Shown here: piece after piece, positions 47,771 through 54,848 of the stretch
Layout: the number at the start of each line of letters is the position of its first letter
Numbering within the stretch: position 1 is the first letter of the stretch
Origin: Luteococcus japonicus
GTDB lineage: Bacteria > Actinomycetota > Actinomycetes > Propionibacteriales > Propionibacteriaceae
Assembly (NCBI RefSeq): GCF_003752415.1
Contig: NZ_RKHG01000001.1
Location: 1,860,001-1,924,000, forward strand
Reading direction: 5' to 3'
Length of the DNA: 64,000 nucleotides
Made by a program: the position numbers and the translations under genes
The notes under the pieces: generated by a model
Seen by the model: the letters and a program-made list of their open reading frames with translations, nothing else
What the model was told of the DNA's origin: nothing
The model's database searches: none

Positions 47771-47834
47771 GACATCCTCCTTGATGTGTCCTACTGGTCT
47801 GATTCCTGCTGGTTCTGGATCTTGTGCTCCATTT

Positions 47835-47848
47835 TTGGAGCGCTCCAA
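47835..47848. promoter_or_regulatory. perfect LacI-type operator in the divergent gap
   Basis: TTGGAGCGCTCCAA, a perfect 14-base palindrome, 65 bases from the oxidoreductase start and 117 from the LacI start. The adjacent LacI protein (47965) is the likely binder. Confidence 0.7.
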
Positions 47849-47890
47849 GTACCTCCAACGGTAGGCCCGCGCACTGCGCTCGTCAAGGGC

Positions 47891-47902
47891 TTGTCCTGAC
47901 AA
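47891..47902. promoter_or_regulatory. iol palindrome copy 1
   Basis: TTGTCCTGACAA with perfect 5-base arms, in the gap between the oxidoreductase at 46556 and the LacI gene. Same motif as at 48999, 49032, 52735, 52837, 63081 and 63982. Confidence 0.7.
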
Positions 47903-47964
47903 TTCCGAGCGAAGGCCCAGCACGGCAACCAGCTACCCTTCTGACAACGACAGATGGGGGAACA

Positions 47965-49014
47965 GTGGCAACCAGCGGCACATCGCGCCCGACGATCTAC
48001 GACGTCGCACAGGAGGCAGGGGTCTCCAAGTCGCTCGTCTCACTGGTGCTCAACGACTCCCCCTTGGTCAGCGACCCCAAGCGCGCGGCGGTGCAGCGAG
48101 CCATCGAGAAGCTGGGCTACCGGCGAAGCCGCAATGCCGCCAGCCTCGCACGTCACCGCTCACACACCGTGGGGCTTGTGGTGGACGACTTCGAGAACCC
48201 CTGGTTCGCCCCCCTGCTGCACGGCCTACGCGAGACACTGGCACCACACGGTCTCCACGTGGCCATCCGCGACCAGCAACCAGTACAAGGGCGGCCGGTC
48301 AATGCCATCGAGGACTTCCTGGAGAGCGAGGTCGACGCGCTGGTGGTCGCCGCCGAGCCGGGCCGCGACTTCGACGATCCGGGCGTGCCCACCGTCGTGG
48401 AGAGCACTCGCCTCAACACCATCGCGGGAGCAGACCTGGTCAGCAGCGACCAGCTGGCCGGTGCACGACTTGCCGTCGACCACCTGGCAGGCCTGGGACA
48501 TCGCGAGATCGGCCACGTCAGCGGGCGCGGAGGCGCCGCGGCGACCAGATGCCGCGGCTACCAGCAGGGCATGGAGGCCCATGGCCTGACCCCACGCATC
48601 GTCGGCACTCGTGAGGACACCACCGAAGAGGGAGGTTATCGGGGGAGCCTGGAACTACTCCACGAGAATCCCCAGATCACGGCCATCTTCACGGCGAACG
48701 ACACCATGGCGATGGGCGCATGGGCCGCCCTTCGTGAACACGGCCACCACGCTCCACCAGGGGTTGCCCTGGTGGGCTATGACAATTCGCCAGCCGCCCG
48801 CAGCCACCTGCTGGACCTGACGACGGTGGACCCTCGCAACCACGACGTGGGGGTCCTGGCCGCCGAGACGCTGCTGCGACGGATGGCCGACCCGAACCGT
48901 CCGCCGGAGCAGCTGCAGGTGATCCCCGAGCTGGCCATCCGCTCCTCATCCGGAGCCGCACGGTCAGCACCGGGAGGACACACCAGGGACGACTTCATTT
49001 GTCCTGACAAATAG
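47965..49014 (+). CDS. LacI-family regulator within the inositol island
   Basis: 349 residues from GTG 47965. Intact helix-turn-helix and hinge: PTIYDVAQEAGVSKSLVSLV, LNDSPLVSDPKRAAVQRAIE and KLGYRRSRNAASLARHRSHT. Sensor domain: GLVVDDFENPWFAPLLHGLR, DALVVAAEPGRDF, DQLAGARLAVDHLAGLGHRE and AIFTANDTMAMGAWAALREH. It probably represses the divergent oxidoreductase/isomerase operon through the palindrome at 47835. Odd feature: its last codons (F-I-C-P-D-K-stop) are themselves part of a 16-base iol palindrome serving the next gene, so coding and operator sequence overlap. Confidence 0.9.
   Translation: MATSGTSRPTIYDVAQEAGVSKSLVSLVLNDSPLVSDPKRAAVQRAIEKLGYRRSRNAASLARHRSHTVGLVVDDFENPWFAPLLHGLRETLAPHGLHVAIRDQQPVQGRPVNAIEDFLESEVDALVVAAEPGRDFDDPGVPTVVESTRLNTIAGADLVSSDQLAGARLAVDHLAGLGHREIGHVSGRGGAAATRCRGYQQGMEAHGLTPRIVGTREDTTEEGGYRGSLELLHENPQITAIFTANDTMAMGAWAALREHGHHAPPGVALVGYDNSPAARSHLLDLTTVDPRNHDVGVLAAETLLRRMADPNRPPEQLQVIPELAIRSSSGAARSAPGGHTRDDFICPDK
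48997..49012. promoter_or_regulatory. iol palindrome copy 2, overlapping the LacI gene's last codons
   Basis: ATTTGTCCTGACAAAT, 7-base perfect arms. TTGTCC within it (48999) could also be the -35 box, with GATATG or TAGATA near 49020-49027 as -10, for the iolC-like gene. Binding there would block RNA polymerase. Confidence 0.72.
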
Positions 49015-52638: not shown

Positions 52639-52734
52639 GTGACCGCTTCCTTCCATGTACTGGCTCGGCATTCGCCTGGGCCTGCTCGCTGCGGTGCGAG
52701 TCCGGAATCGACGCGCAACCTCCGTGTTGTGCGT

Positions 52735-52746
52735 TTGTCCTGACAA
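52735..52746. promoter_or_regulatory. iol palindrome copy 4 over the iolA promoter
   Basis: TTGTCCTGACAA, 97 bases upstream of iolA. On the minus strand TTGTGG and TATTGT (the latter ending inside the palindrome) are spaced 17 bases apart and fit -35 and -10. The palindrome overlaps and follows the -10 box, as expected for a repressor site. Confidence 0.72.
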
Positions 52747-52802
52747 TAACATGTCGTGATTTGCGCCACAACGGGGGTGCCTGAGGTCATCCAATCTCCA
52801 AG

Positions 52803-52831
52803 TTGCGCGCCGTCATCACACAGCCTAGACT
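52803..52831 (+). promoter_or_regulatory. candidate promoter of the small membrane protein gene
   Basis: TTGCGC (52803) and TAGACT (52826) are spaced 17 bases apart. The iol palindrome at 52837 begins six bases after the -10 box, the same geometry as at iolA and iolC. Confidence 0.55.
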
Positions 52832-52848: not shown

Positions 52849-52927
52849 AGTTCTGGCGAACACCACGATGGCCGTGCGGTTGGGGCCATCGGCTCCTTCT
52901 GCGGCCATGCCTACCGAAGGAGAAACA

Positions 52928-53167
52928 ATGACCACCATGCTCACCGCCCCCACCACCTCCGCTGCCATTGAGGATCTTCAGGACTCCACGGTTCGCGTCG
53001 AGGTCCTGCAGCCACTGCTGGTCTGCGCCGCTCTGGCCATCCTGTGCGGCGCCATGGTCATCGCCTCCGTGCTGACCGGCTCCGCGATCGTCCTGGTGGC
53101 CGCCGCGCTGCCGCTGATCGGCGCGAGCTTCCTGGCCGTCTTCGCCTCCTTCCGTCAGTGCTTCTGA
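52928..53167 (+). CDS. small two-helix membrane protein of the inositol regulon
   Basis: 79 residues, not recognised. ATG 52928 has GAAGGAGA six bases upstream. A hydrophilic N terminus of about 25 residues (TSAAIEDLQDSTVRVEVLQP) is followed by two hydrophobic segments, LLVCAALAILCGAMVIASVL and AIVLVAAALPLIGASFLAVF, with a very short turn and a C-terminal SFRQCF. Two cysteines lie in or near the membrane. It has its own promoter with an iol palindrome, divergent from iolA, so it should be co-induced with inositol enzymes. It could assist or regulate the IolT-like symporter encoded at 53418; that is speculation. Confidence 0.72.
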   Translation: MTTMLTAPTTSAAIEDLQDSTVRVEVLQPLLVCAALAILCGAMVIASVLTGSAIVLVAAALPLIGASFLAVFASFRQCF

Positions 53168-53365
53168 GCCGGAGACACTGACCCGGACCAGGCCAGCCGG
53201 ACGAACATCCCCGTCGCGTCCCGCGAACTGCGGGAGACCGACAGCACGAAGCAGCATCATCCGGGCGGGCACTTCCCCACTGCGAGCCTCCGACCCCAGG
53301 GCAACGGAACCGCACAACCAGCCCCCCAACCCCAGAGCAGAGTCACAGTCTCGGCTGGACAAGAA

Positions 53366-53399
53366 GAGGCCGGCATCCATGCACGTGGATGCCGGCCTC
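53366..53399. terminator. bidirectional terminator between the small gene and the MFS gene
   Basis: A perfect 14-base stem, GAGGCCGGCATCCA and TGGATGCCGGCCTC, with a 6-base loop, 19 bases after the leftward MFS stop. The 198 bases between the small gene and this hairpin hold nothing else I can recognise. Confidence 0.87.
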
Positions 53400-53417
53400 T
53401 CGCATTCGAGCCGAGAA

Positions 53418-54848
53418 TCAGATCTTGCCGCCGCTGGCGAAGTGCTCCTCGAGCTCTTCCAGAGAACGACCACTCGTGTTCGGGAGGAACTTGTACAGCA
53501 CGCCGATCACGACAAGGCCAAGCACGAAGAAGATGCCGAACATGCCCTGGAGGCCGGCCTTTGCCGTGACCACCGGGAAGGAGAAGGTGATGATCGCGTT
53601 GACCACCCACATGAACAGAATCGAGACGCCCATGCCAAAGCCGCGGACCCGGAGCGGGAACATCTCGGACAGGGCGACCCAGACCGGAGCATTGAGGCAG
53701 CACTGCATGAAGAAGACGAAGCTCACGCACAGCAACAGCACCAAGTAGGCACGGGCAGTGCTGGCTGGCATCAACGTGGCGACAGCCGTGATCAGACCGT
53801 GGATCAGGGTGGTCATGCAGAAGCCGAAGATGATCAGCTTGCGACGAGCCACCTTGTCGATCACGACGAACAGGCACAGCGCGGTGCCGACGACCGACAG
53901 CACGCCATTGGCAACATTCGCAATGATGGCAGCCTGCGACGAGAAGCCCGCTTCATGCAGAAGCTGGGTGCCGTAGTACATGATCGAGTTGATACCGGTG
54001 ATCTGCTGAGCCGCAGCCAGGAAGCAGCCGATGATGACCAGGCGTCGGATCCACGGGATGCCCATGTCAGACCAGCCACCGGAGTTGGCCAGCTTCTCCT
54101 CCTCGGCCAGCCGCTCCACCTCGGCCATCTCCGCGCGGGCGCGATCCTCATTGCGCACCTGCATCAGGACGGCCAGGGCCTCGTCGTGACGCCCGTGCTT
54201 GAGCAGCCAGCGAGGAGATTCGGGCATCTTCATCATTCCGAAGAAGAGCGCCACCGCAGGAATCATGCAGATGACGAGCATGTAGCGCCAGACCGAACCG
54301 TGATGACCCCACACGCTGGCGATGATCGCGTTGATGGCGAAGGCGAGCATCTGGCCAATCACGATGGCCAACTCATTTCGACCACTCAATGCACCGCGAC
54401 GCTCGGTGGGCGCAAGCTCGGCGAGGTAGACCGGAACAGTGGCGGACGCGGCACCGACAGCCAGACCGAGGACCACGCGAGAGACCAGCAGCACACCCAA
54501 CCCGGGCGCAACCACACAGCCAAGGGCTCCGAAGAAGAAGAGCACGGCGATGGTGCTCATCGTCTTCTTGCGGCCGAGCTTCTCGTTCAGGATGCCCGAA
54601 ACCAGGGCACCCACTGCCGCACCAAGCAGCAATGTGGAGGTGACCAGCCCCTCGCTGGTGGCCGTGAGGCCCAGGTCCTTCTTCATCGGCTCCAGCGCGC
54701 CATTGATCACGCCGGTGTCGTAGCCAAACAGCAGGCCGCCGAAGGTCGCCACGATGGCGATCGTGTCCAGGCGGCGCTGGTGAGGACCGGCCTGAAGGGG
54801 TGGTAGTTCAATCTTCGCGGCGGTTGCCGCTGGAGTTCCGTGGGACAT
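53418..54848 (-). CDS. MFS sugar:proton symporter, myo-inositol transporter IolT-like
   Basis: Sugar porter of 476 residues with 12 hydrophobic segments. Family signatures: IVATFGGLLFGYDTGVINGA (first helix), GILNEKLGRKKTMS (loop 2-3), VPVYLAELAPTERRGAL, MKMPESPRWLLKHGRHDEAL (loop 6-7), QQITGINSIMYYGTQLLHEA (helix 7) and VALSEMFPLRVRGFGMGVSI. The last residues NTSGRSLEELEEHF fit bacterial IolT/xylose porters. ATG 54848 follows AAGGAGACAAGG. Position amid iol genes makes inositol the likely substrate. Confidence 0.92.
   Translation of the reverse strand: MSHGTPAATAAKIELPPLQAGPHQRRLDTIAIVATFGGLLFGYDTGVINGALEPMKKDLGLTATSEGLVTSTLLLGAAVGALVSGILNEKLGRKKTMSTIAVLFFFGALGCVVAPGLGVLLVSRVVLGLAVGAASATVPVYLAELAPTERRGALSGRNELAIVIGQMLAFAINAIIASVWGHHGSVWRYMLVICMIPAVALFFGMMKMPESPRWLLKHGRHDEALAVLMQVRNEDRARAEMAEVERLAEEEKLANSGGWSDMGIPWIRRLVIIGCFLAAAQQITGINSIMYYGTQLLHEAGFSSQAAIIANVANGVLSVVGTALCLFVVIDKVARRKLIIFGFCMTTLIHGLITAVATLMPASTARAYLVLLLCVSFVFFMQCCLNAPVWVALSEMFPLRVRGFGMGVSILFMWVVNAIITFSFPVVTAKAGLQGMFGIFFVLGLVVIGVLYKFLPNTSGRSLEELEEHFASGGKI

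Follow-up and report, generated by a model that had tools for sequence, protein, structure and literature searches.

Type I toxins (TisB, Hok and others) are hydrophobic small proteins whose Shine-Dalgarno (SD) sequence is locked by mRNA structure. Small membrane proteins of the AcrZ, MgtS, MntS and KdpF type mostly have one helix. Transporter modulators form an established class among small proteins, with reviewed cases from the PTS, RND, P-type ATPase, PitA and MntP systems (PMC10710835). For instance, SgrT of E. coli is a small protein that inhibits a sugar transporter and is subject to control at the RNA level (PMC10710835). For inositol uptake, no small-protein regulator was found in the literature searched.

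Here we describe a gene for a two-helix membrane protein that lies among the inositol genes of Luteococcus japonicus, within an analysed stretch of 64,000 nucleotides (the window; Table 1). A sequence-only reading of this DNA had proposed an unrecognised 79-residue protein under inositol control. It is partly supported, as the gene and its control by the locus stand, while its argument from cysteines does not and the leader hairpins and SD sequestration had been missed.

Table 1. Features of the small-protein locus (window coordinates)
Feature	Position	Strand	Basis or remark
LacI-family regulator	47824..49014	+	Pfam LacI 1.1e-13; operators flank the gene
Matching operator at divergent iolA promoter	52734..52747	-	Same palindrome set
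Promoter-like TTGCGC (52803-52808)-17-TAGACT (52826-52831)	52803..52831	+	Read by eye
LacI-type operator palindrome TTTGTCAGGACAAA	52836..52849	+	Overlaps expected transcription start
Hairpin H1, CGATGGCC-loop GTGCGGTTGG-GGCCATCG, core GYCGTGYG (RNA: GYCGUGYG)	52866..52891	+	Leader identity, compensatory changes
Hairpin H2, CTCCTTC pairs with GAAGGAG, SD sequestered	52893..52922	+	SD accessibility, double changes
Shine-Dalgarno AAGGAG	52917..52922	+	5 nt 5' of ATG; read from sequence
Small-protein ORF	52928..53167	+	ATG start, 79 codons/79 aa, TGA stop; two-helix membrane protein
15-bp perfect inverted repeat between convergent genes	53365..53400	.	Read from sequence
IolT-like MFS sugar porter, convergent neighbour	53418..54848	-	Pfam Sugar_tr 8.9e-103; C. 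avidum IolT 75% identical

The gene and its product

The two-helix ORF and its good ribosome-binding site are present as first described. Openness of the frame by itself says little, since 33% of base shuffles also keep it open. Its GC content by codon position (0.64/0.50/0.89) is coding-like, as is that of a paralogue in the same genome and of an ORF in Cutibacterium avidum. On the comparative evidence of this paralogue, of the syntenic C. avidum homologue and of the coding-like GC, 52928-53167 is a real, previously unnamed gene. The description of its product as unrecognised agrees with searches of Pfam, NCBIfam and PHROG, where no family fits, and a search for phage or plasmid origin or copies of the gene gave no match. 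In the region 52868-52927, an in-frame upstream ATG inside H1 would yield a 99-aa form of the protein; in relatives, short uORFs begin at this AUG.

With two hydrophobic segments in 79 aa, the product classes as a small membrane protein. Its AlphaFold model is a helical hairpin (H9-50/H54-78) of modest pLDDT (65), and the protein would accordingly be predicted to sit in the membrane in that form. Two cysteines had been considered notable; there are in fact three (33, 40 and 78), none of them kept in all homologues, so that the cysteine argument fails and a function for these residues was rejected.

The paralogue (contig position 1928549-1928770, 74 aa) lies 15.6 kb away and encodes a protein 45-47% identical to that of the window (shuffle z 11.7). 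Together with a near-identical leader it occupies contig C1:1928485-1928770, that is, window coordinates 68485-68770, beyond the window (L002:1419-1707). It follows a Gfo/Idh/MocA gene and faces a convergent MFS gene, which matches MFS_1 only and is not a sugar porter. In C. avidum (G142), a 92-aa two-helix ORF is located between iolA and iolT, with the same orientations as in L. japonicus. Its product scores z 4.7 against the window protein over 500 composition-preserving shuffles, and both proteins end in FRxC[FL]. Between these two species the small protein is 32% identical, compared with 75% for IolT and 86% for IolA; with such fast divergence, particular residues, cysteines included, are not conserved. 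The dN/dS values are near neutral, both for the window protein and its paralogue (0.76) and for a pair of copies in another relative, G101 (1.15), so that only the hydrophobic pattern and the length appear to be constrained.

Transcriptional control

As originally stated, the ORF is divergent from iolA and convergent with an IolT-like symporter gene (Sugar_tr E 9e-103). The promoter that had been called plausible can be read by eye as TTGCGC-17-TAGACT, but a strict sigma-70 consensus scan does not call it. The palindrome that had been assigned to the gene as its own belongs to an operator repeated across the cluster. The 12-mer TTGTC(CT/AG)GACAA is present at 47891, 48999, 49032, 52735, 52837 and 63081, and 63982 carries a variant. 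With <=2 mismatches allowed, the palindrome gives 15 strand-hits where 1.6 are expected (0/100 shuffles). These sites adjoin the LacI gene, an iolC-like gene, iolA and a transaldolase gene and, from their positions, we infer that they mark one regulon. The set bounds the probable inositol regulon, including the transaldolase gene around 63982.

The LacI-family regulator, whose true start is probably downstream of the listed 47824, is the probable owner of the operator and would repress the small-protein gene. Since the operator is common to the whole cluster, control of this gene by the LacI system of the inositol locus is well supported by sequence in the L. japonicus genome. To this extent the proposed inositol control stands; in C. 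avidum, however, the operator is present only at iolA (TTGTCTTGACAA). Downstream of the ORF, the inverted repeat is likely to be a bidirectional terminator shared by the two convergent genes, although the consensus scan did not call a terminator there.

The leader

The leader at 52864-52904 shares 39/41 nucleotides with that of the paralogue and 34/41 with that of C. avidum; in their coding DNA, the window gene and its paralogue are 65% identical. At the level of sequence, the leader is therefore the most conserved part of the system, more so than the protein, and this points to translational control as the selected feature. The SD is predicted to be unpaired with a probability of 0.04 in the window gene, 0.001 in the paralogue, 0.002 in the relative G043 and 0.19 in another, G216, as compared with a median of 0.41 in 11 other genes of the window, none of which is <=0.05. 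Sequestration is thus strong in the first three and moderate in G216; in C. avidum and G101 it is lacking, and pairing takes in the start codon rather than the SD. From these predicted folds, the leader would be expected to gate translation.

The seven leaders available were aligned by hand padding, fitted to the structure. Standard pairs occupy 88% of the cells, against <=61% when the sequences are slid, and double changes occur at five pairs, a number reached in 4/500 shuffles. H1 has compensatory changes at 3 pairs, with all its double changes coming from G216; in H2, the double changes are two pairs beyond the invariant SD, in relatives. Covariation thus supports the two-hairpin fold without proving it, given the small set and an alignment made to fit the structure. 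The leader matches no curated family in Rfam. As to H1, its action as a DNA operator is disfavoured: conservation is confined to the 5' half, and spacer length ranges from 3-4 to 10 nt.

Distribution among relatives

Among 198 genomes of the family, the leader covariance models (R1 and R2) gave strong matches only to the two L. japonicus copies and to C. avidum, and each of the three is followed by a two-helix ORF at an inositol-type locus; at the weak R2 matches (<=31 bits), no fitting two-helix ORF was found. A strict DNA pattern had one relevant match, C. avidum, in a GTDB collection with one genome per species (84,980 species). With the looser pattern ATGGYCGTGYGN4-12GGCCA, 60 sites were checked in the family and order, and 5 of them precede an SD and a hydrophobic small ORF (two in L. 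japonicus, one in C. avidum and two in G101). Three of these are beside IolT-like genes, one is the second G101 copy, beside a transaldolase gene, and one is the L. japonicus paralogue.

When the flanks of IolT genes were searched, non-MFS two-helix ORFs were found in L. japonicus, C. avidum, G101, G043 and G216, all with the H1 core, a motif that precedes SD-ATG sites of the fetched loci at a background frequency of 2.2%. The small ORF adjoins an IolT-like gene in these 5 genomes and is convergent with an MFS gene in 4/5, and most IolT loci in the family are without it. The sequence-only reading would have been refuted had relatives lacked the frame. The search for it found the frame between iolA and iolT in C. 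avidum, as in L. japonicus, and, with looser versions of the leader, beside IolT-like genes in G101, G043 and G216. G043 and G216 have the H1 core plus an SD-locking hairpin, and in G216 there is also an operator-like TTGTTAAGACAA 5' of the leader, while the MFS gene has a LacI gene as its neighbour. In G043 (L097:8014, -), the small ORF is codirectional with the MFS gene and directly 3' of it, and its leader is 170 nt long and highly structured. G101 has two related small-ORF copies on one contig (C43, L094), where the IolT-like gene carries an in-frame TAG and the second two-helix ORF lies between transaldolase and formate/nitrite transporter genes.

At the protein level, shuffle z values are 4.6 for G101-G216, 2.8 for C. 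avidum-G216 and 2.1 for the window protein and G043; homology of the window protein to the G101 and G043 proteins is not demonstrable by this test. With such values, a single, very divergent protein family is plausible from sequence but not proven. A scan for close relatives of the protein in all GTDB contigs gave no match, and protein profiles run on the 198 genomes found background matches only, nearly all inside larger frames.

Possible functions

The recurrence of leader and microprotein at inositol genes of other propionibacteria suggests that sugar uptake has a helper or brake under tight gating. In the model that we tentatively prefer, with somewhat less than an even chance of being right, the gene encodes an inositol-induced, leader-gated small membrane protein that acts on the neighbouring transporter. 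The gene would be transcribed with the inositol genes once the LacI-type repressor leaves the operator; H2 would hide the SD and hold translation low, and the H1 core would be a likely contact for a factor, RNA or protein, able to open or lock the leader. Once made, the protein would insert in the membrane as a helical hairpin and tune the neighbouring IolT-like proton symporter, most likely damping or stabilising it in the manner of SgrT, AcrZ and MgtS. Modulation of the symporter is an inference from position, and it is the best single reading because the IolT neighbourhood recurs. A bolder version is doubtful: a new class of cis-regulatory RNA in the Propionibacteriaceae, formed by the H1 core and the SD-locking hairpin, that would sense a sugar-stress signal and release a fast-evolving microprotein acting on the MFS inositol symporter.

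Near-neutral dN/dS indicates little constraint for a protein that would have a specific partner and, together with the patchy presence of the gene, it keeps two other explanations live. The product could resemble a type I toxin, that is, a hydrophobic small protein with an mRNA silenced by its structured leader and possibly by an antisense RNA. The locked SD of the window leader, the two copies per genome in two lineages, the patchy distribution and the weak amino-acid constraint would all suit such a toxin. However, these proteins are longer (74-92 aa) and have two helices, they sit at inositol-type loci, under a metabolic operator in L. japonicus, and neither an antisense gene nor phage or plasmid copies were identified, and we consider this unlikely. 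Alternatively, the RNA could be the main product, as in a dual-function RNA similar to SgrS, in which the H1 core would target another mRNA in trans and the ORF would have a secondary role. The far better conservation of the leader than of the protein is what would be expected in that case, but no duplex above background was found between the leader and the start regions of the iol genes, GC3 is coding-like and a two-helix ORF is kept in every member, so we regard it as less likely still.

Equally improbable to us is that the leader is a metabolite-responsive riboswitch or a leader-peptide attenuator, with the protein as an accessory component of a transporter or sensor. The attenuator would use the AUG of a short MAVR-type uORF in H1; AUGGYCGUG is kept in 5/7 leaders, and in G101a the uORF overlaps the start codon. 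This uORF reading was rejected as inconsistent across members: G043 and G216 have no AUG, the uORF lacks an SD, and that of the paralogue (MAVR-stop) ends before H2. The lack of an Rfam match also argues against a riboswitch. Finally, a chance ORF in an intergenic region is very improbable; the third of shuffles that stay open and the lack of a database family would allow it, but the paralogue, the syntenic homologue, the SD, the leader and the codon-position GC stand against it. The preferred model, of a gated modulator of the symporter, is testable in C. avidum, a culturable skin commensal.

Comparison with known systems

Like DUF3040 proteins (PF11239), these are actinobacterial small two-helix proteins. 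Three divergent members give sub-threshold matches to the DUF3040 profile (E 0.09-0.28) and the window protein gives none; membership was rejected, as the profile is nonspecific and matches unrelated membrane proteins equally. The true DUF3040 of the L. japonicus genome lies elsewhere (78 bits). With type I toxins, the system shares a hydrophobic small protein and duplication and, in some of its members, an SD predicted to be locked by mRNA structure; the L. japonicus protein differs in being larger, with two helices, a metabolic operator and a position at the inositol locus.

Like AcrZ, MgtS, MntS and KdpF-type proteins, the L. japonicus protein is a small membrane protein with a proposed role in tuning a transporter, be it a neighbour or a partner; its sequence is different, and the partner in L. 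japonicus is suggested by position. With SgrT/SgrS, it shares small size, a predicted helical hairpin, a link to sugar uptake and control at the RNA level. SgrT, however, at 43 aa, targets PtsG of the PTS, whereas the proteins described here have 74-92 aa and two hydrophobic helices and are encoded beside an MFS porter. Judged by analogy and not by sequence membership, the window protein would, if the choice of the transporter as its target holds, work most like SgrT or AcrZ.
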